Origin: Coniferiporia sulphurascens
Lineage: Eukaryota > Basidiomycota > Agaricomycetes > Hymenochaetales > Hymenochaetaceae
Direction: 5' to 3'
Length of the DNA: 64,000 nt
Assembly: GCA_002794785.1 (NCBI GenBank)
Contig: NBBA01000007.1
Span: 1,798,001 to 1,862,000 of the forward strand
The translations under genes and the position numbers were made by a program. Of this stretch, positions 1,460 to 52,957 are shown one piece after another. Numbering within the stretch: position 1 is the first letter of the stretch; every line of letters starts with the position of its first letter. Below the pieces are notes generated by a model. It did no database searches and was not told the origin of the DNA. It saw only the letters and a program-made list of their open reading frames with translations.

Positions 1460-2656
1460 TCATCCTTTGAACTCCGTCAATGCCATGACTATGTCCGACG
1501 CAGAAGGCCTCTCCGTTGGAATGGTCATCCAACACTTATTGCACAATTCCCATAAGTACTGATGGGATATCGACCAAGTCTCGTAGCGTTTAGGAGTTAA
1601 GGGCCGTTCGCCAGCCGCGATGGCAAGAATTACTTCGGTGAACTGGTTGAGGTGTGAATATGGTCGTTTTTTGGTCAACAACTCCTGTTTATGGAAGAAG
1701 CTGAGCACATGTTCCGGCGCCTTGCTAGCTGAATGAATTGCTTACGAGAACAGTCATACCGAACGCCCGCATGTCAGACCCCTCCGAGTAGGTGTCTGAC
1801 ACTCTGCCTTTCCTTAAAATTAACTCGATTGACATGTACCGACAGGTCCCCTTCACGTTTCTACTTGATGAGCCGAAGTCAAATGAGATAGACGCGGCGA
1901 CATTGCGGGATACGCCAAAATCGCAAATAAGAGGATTCCTCGACGGGGATATTAGAATGTTTTGCTACTGCGGTGTAAGTATATATGCTAGTTTGATTTT
2001 TCTGAAATAAGTTCACAGGCTTTATATCCGAATGCACTACTTTTTTTCGTGCAGGTACTGAATACCCTCGGCAACACGTGCTACCTATTACGAATAAAGT
2101 ATGCCTAAAGAAATACATAACTGATCGCAACGTTTTGCTCACCATTTGCTTAAGGTCATAATCCGGACGTGATTTAAGGTATGTAAGAATGTCGCCATTC
2201 TCCATCCACGGTGAGACCAGCGACGGGATGCCTTTCTCAAGGATAAAACCATGCAACGGGAGGATGTATGGATGGTCGAGTTGTGCTGATATATGCAGCT
2301 CGATCGCCAGTTTCTGGACGTCAAATTAAATAAATAAATAAATAACTTAGAAAAAAAAGCTCAACTACGCACCCGCTTATATTTCTCGCCATCCATACTG
2401 CTCATGCGAATCTTCTTAATCGCCACCTCCCATTAAACGGCGATTCGGAGCAATCCCCAGTGTAAACGTCGCCATAACCACCCCTGCTCTGCGGTTCGAT
2501 GCTGATATTGCTGATCGTTCCAGCAAGGTTTGGAACGTCGAAAGTATTGAGGTACTCTTCCAAGATGTCCCGGGTGGGTTTAACCTCAATAGGGTCAGAA
2601 ACATGGCTGTCTTGATCCGTCGCAGTAGACGCCCCGGCGACCGGGCACTGAAGCAC
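1460..2656 (-). pseudogene. TKL-type protein kinase, broken copy (K1)
   Basis: Minus-strand remains of a protein kinase of the family found four more times in this window. In order can be read the glycine loop (GGYGDV, near 2470), the VAIKK lysine strand (near 2425), the middle lobe (HPYILPL, WMENGDIL), the catalytic loop HSDIKP (near 2050), CDFG (near 1935), a degraded APE region and the C-lobe ending at 1460. Two single-base losses break the frame, one just before VAIKK and one just before the catalytic loop; the tryptophan of the usual DVWAFG is arginine. Introns sit at the family positions, and one holds an (AAAT)n run at 2325-2344. Upstream, near 2700-2730, a Cys-rich stretch (PCARCTEIPC) may be the remnant of the zinc cluster seen in K5. 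Recently dead rather than ancient, since most of the domain still reads. Confidence 0.8.
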
Positions 2657-2972
2657 AACTCAAAGGTAAGAGACGACTGGGGCGAGAGAAAGATTCAAAA
2701 TCCTACCATACAAGGGATTTCCGTACATCTGGCGCATGGACGGTGGCACTCAAGCTCAGCAGCATCCCTCTGTCCGTAGGTGTAGGGAGGAGGCACTTGG
2801 AACTCAGCTTCTCTCCTTCTGGGTAGCACAAACCCAAGCATAGCAGCCCCCAGTTTTCTGAAACCATAACGAATAGGTGCTGAGAAGACTGTGTATCTTC
2901 TTTCAGATAGTGCACTGGGAATAGGCAGTAGTAAAATATGACCAAAAGGCCCCAGTTCAAGATGCAATCATT

Positions 2973-33618: not shown

Positions 33619-35089
33619 ATGCCTCGCTTTCCGCTGAATTGCTCGTTGCGTCAACTGAAGGCTGCCAAGGAGCGAAGGCCTTACCCCTGCTATATGTGTA
33701 TAAGGGCTTGCAAACATGTCAGACATTTTCTAAACTTCCTTTTCCCTCCCTTCCTGACTGTGTGGACGTTATGGATCTAGTGCAAAATAATGGGCCCAGA
33801 CGGATGCACGCGTTGTTTCCGTCACGGATTTCCATGCGATCAAGTTCAGTGATTTGGAACGACCCCTGGTCTTGCAAATATTGGAACCGACTCGTCATTT
33901 TGTCACGTTATCTTGACTCACTTAGAATGTTTTACAGAAATTTCTCGTTCACATGCTCCACCTGAACCTTGCGGGAAAGATCAGCAATATGAGCTCTGTA
34001 ATGCAGGATCATGGAGGCTACAGCGATATTTTTACCGGGTATTGTTCAGTCTTGCCATCAAACGGGAAGGTAGCAATTAAAAGGATCTGAGTGCACATGA
34101 CGGAAGATACAAAATTTCGGAGGGTAAGTAGCTACTGCGCGTCTGTGTAACTTGAATTAGTACCGTCGAGCCTGATTTTCCGACATATAGAGGCTGGCGA
34201 AGGAGCTACACATCTGGTCCAAACTCGATCATCCTTACATCCTTCCTCTTCTCGGATTTTTTTTTGAAGATAATGACTACCCACTACTGGTTTCAATGTG
34301 GATGGAGAATTGGTACCGTCCTTAAATATATAGACTCACATCCTGATTGTAATCTTTTGCAAATGGTGAGAAATGGCGCATAATTGGGTGGTGTATTCAT
34401 CTAAATTCACCGCATCTACGTACGACAGATAACACGTACCGTCGAGGGTATTCGATATCTTCACAGCAACAACATCATACATTCCGATATTAAGCCGGTG
34501 AGTATAGGTTCTCAGAAGAACTAACTTCAAGCCTATTCTTATGTCGCTCGAGCAGGAAAATATTTTGGTATCCTCGTCGGGTGAACCTCGTATTTGCGAT
34601 TTTGGTATATCCCGCATGCTTGTTGGGTCAAGCACATTCGACTTTGGCTCGACGACTGATAGCTTGAATGGTACCTGCCGGTACATGGCGGTCGAGTTAA
34701 TTAACAAAACAGATCAAGAATCCGACACTTACTCAGAGGCGTCTGATATGTGGGCATTTGGTACGACCGTTGCTGTAAGCAGTTTATTAGGGCTAGTATT
34801 ACTGAGATTATGCACGCTCAATTTATCCCGTAAATAGGCTCTGTTAACCAAGAAACCACCGTATTCACATCTTAGGTCGGACCCCCAAGTGATCATTGCC
34901 ATCGTAAATGGTGAACTGCCCCTTGCTCCTCAGGATTTCGAGACGTGGACAGGGACTTATCAGTACTTGTGGAGGCTATGCATCAGTTGCTGGAAGAGCT
35001 CGCCGTCGTTGAGGCCTTCCGCATCTGCCGTTGCCCTGTTGTTAGGAGAACCTGTGCTTTCCTTTATGTCTCATATCGGTGCAATATGA
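33619..35089 (+). pseudogene. Zn2Cys6-kinase fusion gene, broken copy (K2)
   Basis: The first exon (33619-33717, MPRFPL start) and second exon (from 33781) encode a complete Zn2Cys6 cluster when spliced: CYMC...CKH, then CKIMGPDGC-TRC-FRHGFPC (bases 33688-33837). A TGA at 33850 follows, then a frame change, then the kinase: GGYSDIF, VAIKR (near 34080), a TGA at 34090 in place of an Arg codon, HPYILPL, a one-base insertion at WMEN (near 34310), HSDIKP (near 34490), CDFG (near 34600), DMWAFG (34745) and the C-lobe to 35089. Exon boundaries match K4 and K5. The zinc cluster keeps all six cysteines although the gene as a whole is dead. Confidence 0.78.
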
Positions 35090-42404: not shown

Positions 42405-43583
42405 TTACATCAATAGGTCTAATATAAAGACTATGTTGGACATGGAGGGCCGTTTAGACGGCTCGCTGTCCCAGCATCTGGCACATAACTCCAATAAGCA
42501 TTTACGGATTCGAGATATCGCCTCATGGTCCCCAGGAACAAGAGGAAGACTACTACCCTGAGCAACGGCAAACATCACTTGAGCATCTCTCTTAAGATTG
42601 AAATATGGCAATTCCTTGGTCAACAGTACCTGTTTACGGAAAAGTCTGAGCCCACATCGTAGATACTGATCCTGGCAAACTGCTTACGAGGACGGTCATA
42701 CCGAATGCCCACACATCAGATGCGTTAGAGTACTCAGAGCTCGGAACAAACAGCTCGATCGCAGTGTACCGGATTGTACCTCTCAATTCGCCGGTTGTCG
42801 AGCTATTGGAATTGACGTCCTTCGGTATTCCGAGATCACAAACAAGAGGCTCGCCCGAGGGGGAAATTAGGATGTTACTGTATCCTTTCATAGCCATTAG
42901 TGGGGGTGAAACTTGAACAGTCTCAGGCTGGACAATATACCACCCACGGGTTTGATGTCGCAATGAACAATGTGTTTGTCATGGAGGTAACCAATCCCTT
43001 CGGCAATACCCAATATCTGTTATGAGTTCAGTGTGGGTGAAAGAACGGCTACATCCACTAGACATTGGATCGCTCACCACTTCAAGAGGACTTAGGTTGC
43101 AGTGAGGATTAGACTCAAGGTACGGAAGGATGGTGCTATCATCCATCCAAGGCGAAATCAGCGATGGACAGCCACTCTCTTCCAGGACGAAGCCAAGAAG
43201 AGTGTGGACGTTTGGATGACACAGGCTGCACCAGATGTACAGCTCCCTTGCCAGTTTCTGGGAGGCGAAGTCAGGCGCAACGACTTGAATTGTAAAAAGA
43301 AAGTGGCAAAATACTAATCACCTTCTGAGGCTTCTCCTCTTTCACCATATACATGTACACTGTATGCTCGAAGTCTCTTGACTGTTACTTTCAGGTCTGA
43401 TCGAAAATTGGAATAATGGCAAGTAAAGATGTCGCTGTGTCCTCCTTGTGCCTTCACAGCAGGGCTGGTCCCGGTTATTTTCCCTGTAAGATTTAGATGG
43501 GAAAGGCTCGCGAGGGAGGCTGATGAGGCGGTATCTAGGGCCGTGGGCTTTTCGTACGTGAACAGTATACTGTATATCCACGT
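42405..43583 (-). CDS. TKL-type protein kinase (K3), possibly failing
   Basis: Minus-strand kinase. Exons read: 43583-43322 (LFTYEKP..., SHLNLTGK, glycine loop GGHSDIF, lysine strand KVTVKR); 43283-43078 (REL, HTLLGFV, SPWMDDSTIL); 43016-42948 (AEGIGYLHDKHIVHCDIKP); then CDLG and DVWAFGM (about 42880-42690) and the C-lobe to 42405. The catalytic Asp and Lys are present, but HRD is HCD and DFG is DLG. The splice acceptor before the CDLG exon is unclear; a 5-base insertion there (GATACAGTAAC where sisters have GATAAC) would break the frame. No zinc cluster was found upstream. Either a diverged gene or a fresh pseudogene. Confidence 0.7.
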
Positions 43584-46516: not shown

Positions 46517-47877
46517 CTAGGACACGAACAATAATGTAGGCTCCTTTAAGAACAGAGCTATGGCGGATGCGGAAGGTCTCATCAATGGTGAGCTCTCCCA
46601 GCAAGTATTACACAGTCTCCACATGTACTGATAAGACCATGTCCACGTCTCGAAATCATTAGGAGTGAGGGGCAGTTCACCATTCACTGCAATGGCAATA
46701 ATCACTTGGGCATCCGTCCTAAGATGTGAATATGGCGGTTTCCCCGTCAACAGGTGCTGTTTATGGGAGGGGTTGAGCGCGTTGTACAAAATATTAGTCC
46801 TAGCCCCAATAAATTGCTTACAGCAACGGTCATACCAAATGCCCACATATCAGATGCCTCTGAGTAAACGTCGAACTCTTGATCCGCATTATTTAATAAC
46901 TCGACCGCCATGTACCGGTAGGTACCACTCAGGCATTCATTTGTTGAGTCAAAGTCGTACTTACTTGAATCGTCGAGTATGTGGGATATACCAAAATCGC
47001 AAATACGAGGTTCACCTGACGAGGATACCAAAATGTTGTCCTGCTCGAACGGCGTAAGAATGGGTTTGAAATTAGTTCTTTTGAAAACTGGTGCGCACGG
47101 GTTTGATATCGGAATGTATAATGTTTTTACTATGAAGGTATTGAATACCCTCGACAATACGTGTTACCTGTCATTGATGCATTTAGAGGAATCCCATTCT
47201 CAATTATGAGGCGATTGCTCACCATTTGCAGAAGATTACAATCCGGATGTGAGCCAAGATATTTAAGGATGGTACCGTTCTCCATCCACACCGAGACCAA
47301 CATTGGATAGTCATTATCTCCGAAGAAAAACCCGATAAAAGAAAGGATGTATGGATGGTCTAGTTTTGCCCAGATGTGCAGCTCTTTTGCCAGTCTCTGG
47401 ACGTCAGATGAGATATAAGAATTCCGATCGCGCAAATATGCAATATCTACACACCGTCCGAGTTTCTTTATCTTCCCTCTTATGCACACGGACGCGTTTA
47501 ATTGCTACCTTCCCGTTTGATAGCAATCTTGAACAACGCCCAGTAAAAATATCGCTGTGCCCCCCGCTGTCTTGCATTGCAGAGCCAGTATCGCTAATCG
47601 TTCCCGCAAGATTCAAGTGGTGCATGTCAATGAGGGTTGCCTCTAGAACGTCACGAGGCCGCCTAACGGAACTGAATGAGACGGAGAGGAGGCCGCCCAA
47701 CGCGCTGAGGAGGCTCAAGCTTCCTAACGCGTTGAGAAGACTCAGGCTGCCCAATGTGGTGGGGAGGCTGCCTAACGTGGTGAAGCCGGCTAATGGGTTG
47801 AAAAAAGTAGTGCAGACTGGGTTGAGTTCGTTCCGGTTTGCAGGATCGCGGGTCTCACACCGACTGCCATAATACAT
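46517..47877 (-). CDS. TKL-type protein kinase (K4), intact domain, eroded zinc cluster
   Basis: Five exons: 47877-47455, 47396-47223, 47167-47099, 47040-46822 and 46756-46517, giving 374 aa from the first ATG. Residues 20-70 hold Leu/Gly-rich tandem repeats. The kinase domain follows: GGHSDIF, VAIKRV, HPYILSF, WMENGTIL, HSDIKP then DNILVSSSGEP, CDFG, the MAVELL segment and DMWAFGM. Catalytic Lys, Asp and DFG are kept, while Arg of HRD is Ser as in most sisters. At the start, GSRCETRDPAN aligns with the second half of the K5 cluster but only one of three Cys remains; 5' of it an eroded first half (HSCSRFQNHYH) lies near 47955-47985. So the DNA-binding part has been lost while the kinase part is intact. 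Confidence 0.75.
47680..47786 (-). repeat. Coding tandem repeat in K4
   Basis: Four imperfect units of about 27 bases, each encoding a Leu-Gly-Ser-Leu type peptide, in the linker before the kinase domain. The neighbouring kinases do not show it. Confidence 0.7.
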
Positions 47878-50938: not shown

Positions 50939-52957
50939 CTAGTCCGAGTCACAGTCCGAGTCCGAGTCCGGGTCCGGCCAGCGAGTTTTGAACCAATCTT
51001 GGCTTCGCGATCGCGCGGGCTTTGTAATTGAGAAGGTTTGGAATGGACCTGGCATCGAGTCCTGCGGGGGAAGCTTCATGGCATGTTGCGTAAGGAAAGG
51101 CGCGTCGCCTTCTGGACCGTGGGCATTATTATTATATTTAGACGGTGCTCTGGGATCATTAATATAAAGCAAGTCGAACGATGTCGCAATTCTACCACCT
51201 CGAGAAGGCGGTGGATGACCATCGCCGTATTGGGTGTAAGATATTACATCATTCAGGTGCTGCTGCTGCTCCTGATCAGGCGCTCCAAAATCGATCGAGA
51301 GGTGCATGCTCGATGATGCGGCGGAGTTTGGCGCGAATGCACCGCTCCCATCGCTGTAGCCATTAATAGAGCCTCGATCAGCATGTGTGCTGTACAGTCG
51401 GCCGTTGTGGTTCTCTAGATTCGCTGGATTAATAGGTGAGGATGGGCTGCCAAGCTGCGCCGACGAGCCCAGGGGAGTAAAGCCACCTTCTATTTTACCC
51501 AGCATATGGCCATCCGCCGACATCTGCCACGAGACGCTCGTGGCACCGGCCTGCTGAAAAGGTAGCCTGAGCACAGAGGCCGTATAGGACATTGAAGGTC
51601 GCATCGATGGCAGCTTATTCCAGCAGTCGGCACACAATTCCCACAAAAGCTTGTAGAGTTCGGACCATGATTCAAAATCATCAGGAACAGGGGGAAGTTG
51701 ACCAGACGTGATTATGGGAACAACTCTAAAGTCGCTTTTAATGTGATAATATGGCGGTTTCCTGGTCAATAGTACCTAGTTGTAGACATGTAAGCATATA
51801 TTTACTAAGATATTGATCATCGCAAACGCCTCACAAGAAGGGTCATGCCAAACGCCCAGATATCAGATGCCTTGGAGTAAGTGTGTGGTTCCTCATCCGT
51901 TGCACTGAGTAGTTCGATTGACATATATCGGACGGTGCCTTTCAGGTCTCCAGTCGTCGAGCCACCGAGGCTGGTTGATTTCGACTCAACCAGCATGCGG
52001 GATATACCGAAATCGCATATACGTGGTTCACCCGACGAGGATACTAGTATGTTATCCTGTTGTGATGACGTCAAGACAAGTTCGTGACAACATTGAAACT
52101 AGTACTCACAGGTTTGATGTCTGAATGTACGACATTAGCGGAATGAAGATATTCGATTCCTTCGGCGATATGCAATACCTATTGTGTATGGTAAATTTGA
52201 GGGAGATTGTTGCGTAACTATAAAGCATTGCTAACCATTTTCTGAAGATCGCAATCTGGATGTGAGTTCAGGTATTCGAGAATTGTACCATTATCCATCC
52301 ACATCGAAACCAATGACGGGTAGTCATTGCTTTCAAAAAAGAAGCCGAGAAAACGAAGGATATACGGATGATCGAGTTTGGCCCAAATGTGCAGCTCCTT
52401 CACCAATTTCTGGACGCCAAACTAGGCATGAAAACACTAATAATACGGGCGAACGACAGCTACGTACCTTTTGGAATTTTTTATCTCCCGCCATATGCAC
52501 GCGGAGTCTCTTGATTGCCACCTTCCCGTTTGATGGCAAAGTAGAGCAATACCCAGTAAAAATATCGCTGTAGCCCCCATGACTCTGCATCCCAGCACTG
52601 ATATTGGTGACCTTCCCTGTAAGGTTTAGATGTGCCAGACGAAGAAGAAATCTCTCCAAGAAATCTGAGACAAGAGACTGGGGCAGATTGGAGGATAAAG
52701 CAGAGCCTGATTGCAAGCTAATCGATCTTGCTCTGGAAACAAGGCTGCAATGGGATCCCTGGGTTTCACAACGCAAGCAAGCTCCAGAACTGGAAATGAC
52801 TTCGCACTGCATGATGAAGGCACAGTTAAGGGGATGAGGTAAGAAAAGTTGGGAATTGTCTGACATTCTCGTGCCTTCGCCTACATTCATAGCACCCGAC
52901 AGCTCGATCCTGGCCTCTCTTGACTGTGGACACCATTGGCGACTGAACGCGGGGCAT
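50939..52957 (-). CDS. Zn2Cys6 zinc cluster-TKL protein kinase fusion (K5)
   Basis: Six exons on the minus strand, all joined in phase 0: 52957-52865, 52806-52468, 52409-52236, 52178-52110, 52056-51835, 51775-50939; 577 aa. Residues 22-51 form a binuclear cluster C-X2-C-X6-C-X8-C-X2-C-X6-C with basic RRRH after the second Cys, as in Gal4-type DNA-binding domains. After a linker comes the kinase domain: GGYSDIF, VAIKR (Lys 130), HPYILRF, WMDNGTIL, HSDIKP (Asp 222) then DNIL, CDFG (Asp 240), DIWAFGM and the C-lobe to about 345. A 230-residue tail rich in Ser, Pro, Gln and Asn ends in an acidic Asp/Ser repeat. All key catalytic residues are present except Arg of HRD (Ser here). The first intron splits the cluster exactly before its third Cys, as in K2. 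Best-preserved member of the family. Confidence 0.8.

Follow-up and report, generated by a model that had tools for sequence, protein, structure and literature searches.

The window analysed here is a stretch of 64,000 nucleotides from Coniferiporia sulphurascens, a tree root-rot fungus, and it carries at 52957-50939 (-) a gene, which we call K1, whose six phase-0 exons translate after splicing into 577 aa with no internal stops (Table 1). The exon lengths (93, 339, 174, 69, 222 and 837 nt) are each divisible by three, and each of the five introns begins with GT, ends with AG and is 53-59 nt long. The first two exons encode a Zn2Cys6 cluster, C22-YE-C25-RRRHEN-C32-EVISSSGA-C41-LR-C44-ETQGSH-C51 (residues 22-51), and behind it lies a kinase with K130 (VAIK), D222 (HSDIKPDN) and DFG at 240-242, which by its sequence has the residues of an active enzyme. 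An earlier note on this DNA had read a CX2CX6CX8CX2CX6C spacing in the first two exons and had joined six exons in phase 0 into a kinase with Lys, Asp and DFG in place, and the spliced translation agrees with it on both points. Four further kinase genes of the K1 family lie in the window, three of them with a stop or a frame break in the model.

Table 1. Positions of K1 features and of related kinase genes in the window.
Feature	Position	Strand	Basis
K1 exon 1: start Met and first half of cluster (C22, C25, basic loop RRRHEN)	52865..52957	-	gene model, alignment
K1 intron 1, phase 0, between N31 and Cys3 (C32), donor GTCAG	52807..52864	-	gene model, alignment
K1 exon 2: second half of cluster (C32, C41, C44, C51), linker, start of kinase N-lobe with VAIK	52468..52806	-	gene model, Pfam
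K1 exon 3: kinase N-lobe with KELHIW (alpha-C Glu region)	52236..52409	-	gene model
K1 exon 4: catalytic loop HSDIKP	52110..52178	-	gene model
K1 exon 5: DFG and activation segment	51835..52056	-	gene model
K1 exon 6 (51775-50939), first part: end of kinase C-lobe	51548..51775	-	gene model, Pfam
K1 exon 6, tail: 171 aa, homologous in frame to a section of a C2H2+Zn2Cys6 transcription factor gene (C4:1254193-1254741)	51035..51547	-	alignment
K1 exon 6, end: final 31 aa and stop; first part resembles transcription factor gene DNA in a different frame	50939..51034	-	sequences compared by eye
Paralogue with the same split N-terminal cluster, CYMCIRACKH/CKIMGPDGCTRCFRHGFPC (stroke at the split)	33619..35053	+	spliced alignment
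Further kinase gene of the K1 family	1496..2887	-	
Further kinase gene of the K1 family	42414..43514	-	
Further kinase gene of the K1 family	46538..47849	-	

A search of the genome (39,347,566 bases in 31 contigs), followed by modelling with a home-made spliced aligner, gave 50 rows from 28 loci and five window stretches, or 48 distinct kinase models, and this count is a lower bound because the search kept the best candidates only. Among these best genome candidates a complete six-Cys N-terminal cluster was present in 6 of 48 distinct models: K1, C7_1431, C7_1426, C11_964, C11_967 and the window copy at 33.6 kb. Four of the six (K1, C7_1431, C11_964 and C11_967) are open throughout the modelled part and are referred to below as the intact copies; C7_1426, near-identical to C7_1431, has one frame break downstream of the cluster, and one premature stop codon and one frameshift interrupt the kinase part of the 33.6 kb copy (its model also ended in a doubtful exon of 9 nt, to 35158, which was excluded). 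The C11_990 copy has one cluster Cys changed plus other breaks. In the window, the cluster of the 2887-1496 (-) copy is decayed and the model has two frame marks, and no cluster was found at 47849-46538 (-) by spliced model or split-cluster pattern search. A stop or frame mark was present in 13 of the 48 distinct models. At three loci on contigs C11 and C7 (L044, L047 and L064), HCNINP and CGFG replace HSDIKP and CDFG, so that these genes are probable pseudokinases. In the kinase tree the cluster-bearing copies did not form one clade and were mixed among cluster-less copies, with four changes needed, a count that scores the rows of C. weirii as cluster-less from annotated models whose true N-termini may differ.

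A phase-0 intron with donor GTCAG lies immediately before Cys3 in all six complete N-terminal clusters, and donor and acceptor are common to the five copies that were aligned. The earlier note had placed this intron at the same codon in a second gene that it called K2, a label left undefined; the other window copy that has this cluster intron is the one from 33619 (+). In 198,456 bp, comprising the 28 family loci and the window, we found nine distinct clusters split before Cys3 (10 rows, one gene appearing twice), and the same pattern gave no matches in 20 dinucleotide shuffles of the same sequence; together with conservation across copies, this rules out a cluster made of chance Cys residues. 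One of the nine (L054 position 9287 (-), C15:460287) has the intron at the same position and no kinase behind it in the stretch read, and an intron before Cys3 was also found in one of eight other Zn_clus loci scanned in this genome. Across the six N-termini the invariant residues are only M1, the six Cys and G48. Identity between K1 and other copies outside the Cys positions was 15/49 for C7_1431 and 12/49 for both C11_964 and C11_967 (24-31%), too low for overall similarity to account for the retention of all six Cys.

Zn2Cys6 clusters (PF00172) have the spacing CX2CX6CX5-12CX2CX6-9C, which is found in all six complete N-terminal clusters. On K1, Pfam returned 24.5 bits for Zn_clus on residues 1-95 (cut-off 21) and 157.6 bits for Pkinase; on the whole protein Zn_clus reached only 20.9, just below the cut-off. 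The N-terminal pieces of C11_967, C11_964 and C7_1431 scored 21.8, 16.3 and 12.6 against the same cut-off, and the Pfam profile gave no Zn_clus match on that of the 33.6 kb copy. Pkinase_fungal (PF17667) scored 19.9 on K1, under its cut-off of 24.1. The usual partner of a Zn2Cys6 cluster is, as the earlier note said, the fungal transcription-factor middle region; Pfam searches of K1 gave no match to Fungal_trans at E <= 5, and none to an NLR part. A cluster-profile search of the PDB ranked LEU3 first with a non-significant E of 0.22, in a list where four of eight entries were unrelated Matrix remodeling-associated protein 8 chains, and the best PDB matches of the K1 kinase were a mix of EGFR, Nek7, B-Raf, EphA3, MKK7, RAF1 and RIPK1. 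A basic first loop is typical of Zn2Cys6 clusters that read DNA, and the loop between Cys2 and Cys3 has 3-4 K/R of 6 residues in the four intact copies and 2 in the broken 33.6 kb copy. The loop ends in Lys in Gal4 and in Asn in K1.

Several observations bear on whether the cluster is translated together with the kinase. Of seven copies, six (C11_990 and the complete-cluster copies other than K1) have a stop directly before exon 2 when its frame is read without splicing, and therefore an unspliced upstream start is excluded in those six; the same stops disfavour the idea that the cluster exons belong to a separate gene. K1 is the exception, since its exon 2 frame runs back through intron 1 without a stop and contains three Mets there, including an ATG next to the acceptor. 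Spliced K1 has no Met between M8 and M104, and a start at M104 would drop the segment LxRxLxRxxHLxLTGK, which precedes M104 in K1 and does not vary among the four intact copies. In the C11 copies there are Mets between the cluster and the kinase. As point estimates by a simple method, dN/dS for N-terminus plus linker was 0.28-0.44 among the four intact copies (six pairs; dS high in those with K1), and for the cluster stretch alone 0.30-0.46 where dS was defined, with bootstrap upper bounds of 0.69-1.00 and dS saturated in two K1-C11 pairs. The near-identical pair C7_1431/C7_1426 gave 0.85 over 95 codons on only 8 changes (2 synonymous, 6 nonsynonymous). The kinase gave 0.10-0.17 in K1 pairs, where dS is high. 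The earlier note's central claim, that cluster and kinase are one protein, is thus backed by a start codon, intron position, frame and six Cys conserved in six copies, by dN/dS point estimates below 1 and by in-frame stops before exon 2 in five other complete-cluster copies. On these sequence grounds it is very probable that the two are fused in one translated protein.

Some family members carry a second six-Cys cluster. This motif, CGFCTHFNQT/CELIGWTLCLKCSELGRSTC and a close variant, is present at the C-terminus of C11_964 and C11_967, with a 77-nt GTGGGT..CCAG intron, one of several possible introns, right before its Cys3. In C. weirii, P0007 has a complete six-Cys C-terminal motif, and P0005 and P0121 each end, by eye, in the first half of such a cluster. 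None of the three C-terminal cluster pieces tested matched Zn_clus with Pfam, and none of the three had K/R in loop 1. In the AlphaFold2 model of P0007 the kinase is well modelled, with many ten-residue blocks above 90, and the C-terminal cluster stretch has a pLDDT of 30-33, a value that supports neither a fold nor the lack of one.

The tail of K1 matches in frame part of a C2H2+Zn2Cys6 transcription factor gene on contig C4, with an identity over 171 aa of 73.7% to this genome's gene and 76.0% to the C. weirii counterpart, P0021, which has two C2H2 fingers and a Zn2Cys6 cluster; judged from these alignments, the C4 gene or P0021 is the source or sister of the K1 tail. The copied piece maps behind the fingers and cluster of the factor and includes neither. 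The two transcription factor pieces are 94.4% identical to each other (167/177 aa), and private changes number 38 in the K1 tail and 7 and 3 in the two factor genes. The tail pair gave a dN/dS of 0.29 over 171 homologous codons, and because most changes fall on the tail's branch, the tail's own value would be higher than that of the pair. The tail has three gaps, of 9, 3 and 15 nt. Simulations with 66, 100, 131 and 150 random substitutions left the frame of the tail open in 13, 5, 3 and 2% of runs, respectively. Constraint on the tail therefore seems likely from these comparisons but not strong. Past the 171-aa match the DNA still looks, by eye, like that of the transcription factor, in another frame, and the annotated end of P0001, the C. 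weirii orthologue of K1 and its sister in the tree, differs from that of K1. The gene family, the second C-terminal cluster in some members and the transcription factor-derived tail all go beyond the earlier note.

Public relatives were taken as the best 120 of 452 and the best 120 of 466 matches (196 proteins). No kinase among the matches listed carried PF00172, a few of the domain lists being incomplete, and a complete six-Cys motif was present in 2 of the 196 proteins listed, P0007 and the transcription factor P0021. K1 residues 1-96 had no public relatives at E <= 10 among 141 candidates. One public model from C. weirii, P0159 (M0805_009274), has an N-terminus closely similar to those described here, with cluster halves joined to a kinase N-lobe; its Cys2 is replaced by Tyr, the model stops inside the kinase, and it is assigned no Pfam domain. 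An acidic, Ser-rich insertion of more than 100 aa was seen by eye between its cluster and kinase. P0001, P0005, P0007 and P0121 of C. weirii are annotated from Mets that correspond to positions after the cluster. With sister-species models starting after the cluster or lacking one Cys, such fusions may escape domain censuses. Among other relatives, Phellopilus P0015 has both halves of a cluster close to its C-terminus, separated by residues that may come from a retained intron or from the gene that follows, and it was left out of the evidence; P0002 and P0008 (Hymenochaetales) have, by eye, two tandem kinase domains. P0038 (Sistotremastrum) is a related kinase with PF00385 and PF00628, which we take to be chromo and PHD domains, and is another chromatin-type fusion in this kinase group.

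Our preferred reading, to which we give a rough probability of 0.45, is that K1 belongs to a small, lineage-specific family of Zn2Cys6-kinases docked at DNA or chromatin by the cluster. A short linker joins the cluster to the kinase, which probably falls within the expansions of tyrosine-kinase-like (TKL) kinases known from mushroom-forming fungi. In fungi, a kinase and a transcription factor usually come together as two distinct proteins; in K1 the cluster would bind zinc, its basic first loop would hold the kinase at DNA or chromatin, the docked kinase would phosphorylate factors bound nearby, and the tail would provide an extra low-complexity contact surface, with address and enzyme combined in one protein. 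Docking at DNA or chromatin is favoured because the kinase residues are intact and the N-terminal clusters have a basic loop 1. More tentatively, the family as a whole might consist of DNA-addressed kinases, each with its own Zn2Cys6 tag and some with a second cluster, rebuilt repeatedly by taking pieces of transcription factor genes, as in the tail of K1. If docking holds, the most typical fungal DNA-binding cluster fused to a kinase would make a minimal system in which site-directed phosphorylation at promoters could be tested, and it might help to explain why mushroom-forming fungi retain so many TKL-type kinases whose function is unknown, some of which may act at the genome.

The main rival accepts that the fusion is translated and holds that the cluster, instead of binding DNA, regulates the kinase or makes protein contacts for it in a manner that depends on zinc or redox state. 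The lack of K/R in loop 1 of the C-terminal clusters in two intact copies and P0007 is consistent with such a role, as are an N-terminal stretch with nothing invariant in six copies beyond Met1, the Cys and one Gly, and the missing Fungal_trans match. We consider it rather unlikely, however, since the N-terminal loop 1 keeps its basic residues in all four intact copies and two N-terminal pieces (K1 and C11_967) exceed the Zn_clus cut-off.

A lesser rival draws on plant NLRs with integrated WRKY domains: fast-changing tandem kinases would acquire transcription factor pieces as baits or mimics. Two such pieces in one protein (cluster and tail), the 13 of 48 marked models, the scatter of cluster-bearing copies in the tree and the precedent of WRKY fusions, including WRKY19/MEKK4 (as far as the available part of PMC4759884 goes), would be compatible with this analogy. 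It nevertheless seems improbable, since Pfam finds no NLR part, neither the six Cys nor the catalytic residues have been lost and no partner or pathogen factor is known. There is a similarly small chance that the gene model is wrong, with translation beginning after the cluster, or in K1 at the unspliced ATG at the end of intron 1, leaving the full cluster outside the kinase. The annotated after-cluster starts of the four C. weirii models, the open frame with three Mets in K1 and the Mets of the C11 copies all lean that way, but against them stand the stops that precede exon 2 in all six copies tested besides K1, the conservation of start codon, Cys and intron, and the pre-kinase segment that a start at M104 would forfeit. 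We think it very improbable that birth and death of genes in the gene cluster has left K1 as a non-functional chimera: the marked paralogue models and the out-of-frame 3' end of the tail would suit it, but 577 codons are open, dN/dS is low in the kinase (0.10-0.17 in K1 pairs, dS high) and 0.29 in the tail pair, and the tail gaps are multiples of three.

A DNA-docked Zn2Cys6-kinase family can be set beside several known systems. Expansions of TKL and FslK kinases have been described in Agaricomycetes, and K1 resembles them, so far as the available texts describe them, in general kinase type, many lineage-specific copies and mushroom-forming hosts (PMC3937382, PMC2838846). The word "zinc" is absent from the available texts of both papers and "DNA binding" from that of PMC2838846, which deals with fungal kinases and their attached domains and includes one kinase with Fungal_trans among rare domains. 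Literature searches of open-licence papers, over titles and the starts of abstracts, listed no Zn2Cys6-kinase fusion, nor was there anything on one in the available parts of PMC11878562 and PMC4102429. With Gal4-type Zn2Cys6 factors (PF00172), K1 shares the six-Cys spacing and the basic loop 1 and differs in that its cluster precedes a kinase rather than a Fungal_trans match. Dual C2H2+Zn2Cys6 transcription factors are known (PMC5415576, available part), and the K1 tail is homologous to such a factor but is without C2H2 fingers or Zn2Cys6 cluster. Plant WRKY fusions include the WRKY-NLR-kinase WRKY19/MEKK4, which, in the available part of PMC4759884, likewise pairs a DNA-binding-type domain and a kinase in one polypeptide; unlike K1, it has a different DNA-binding family and an NLR core and is found in plants. 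Both halves of K1 thus belong to known families; what appears new within the literature searched is that they are combined, that the combination is conserved as a family and that some members have a second cluster.
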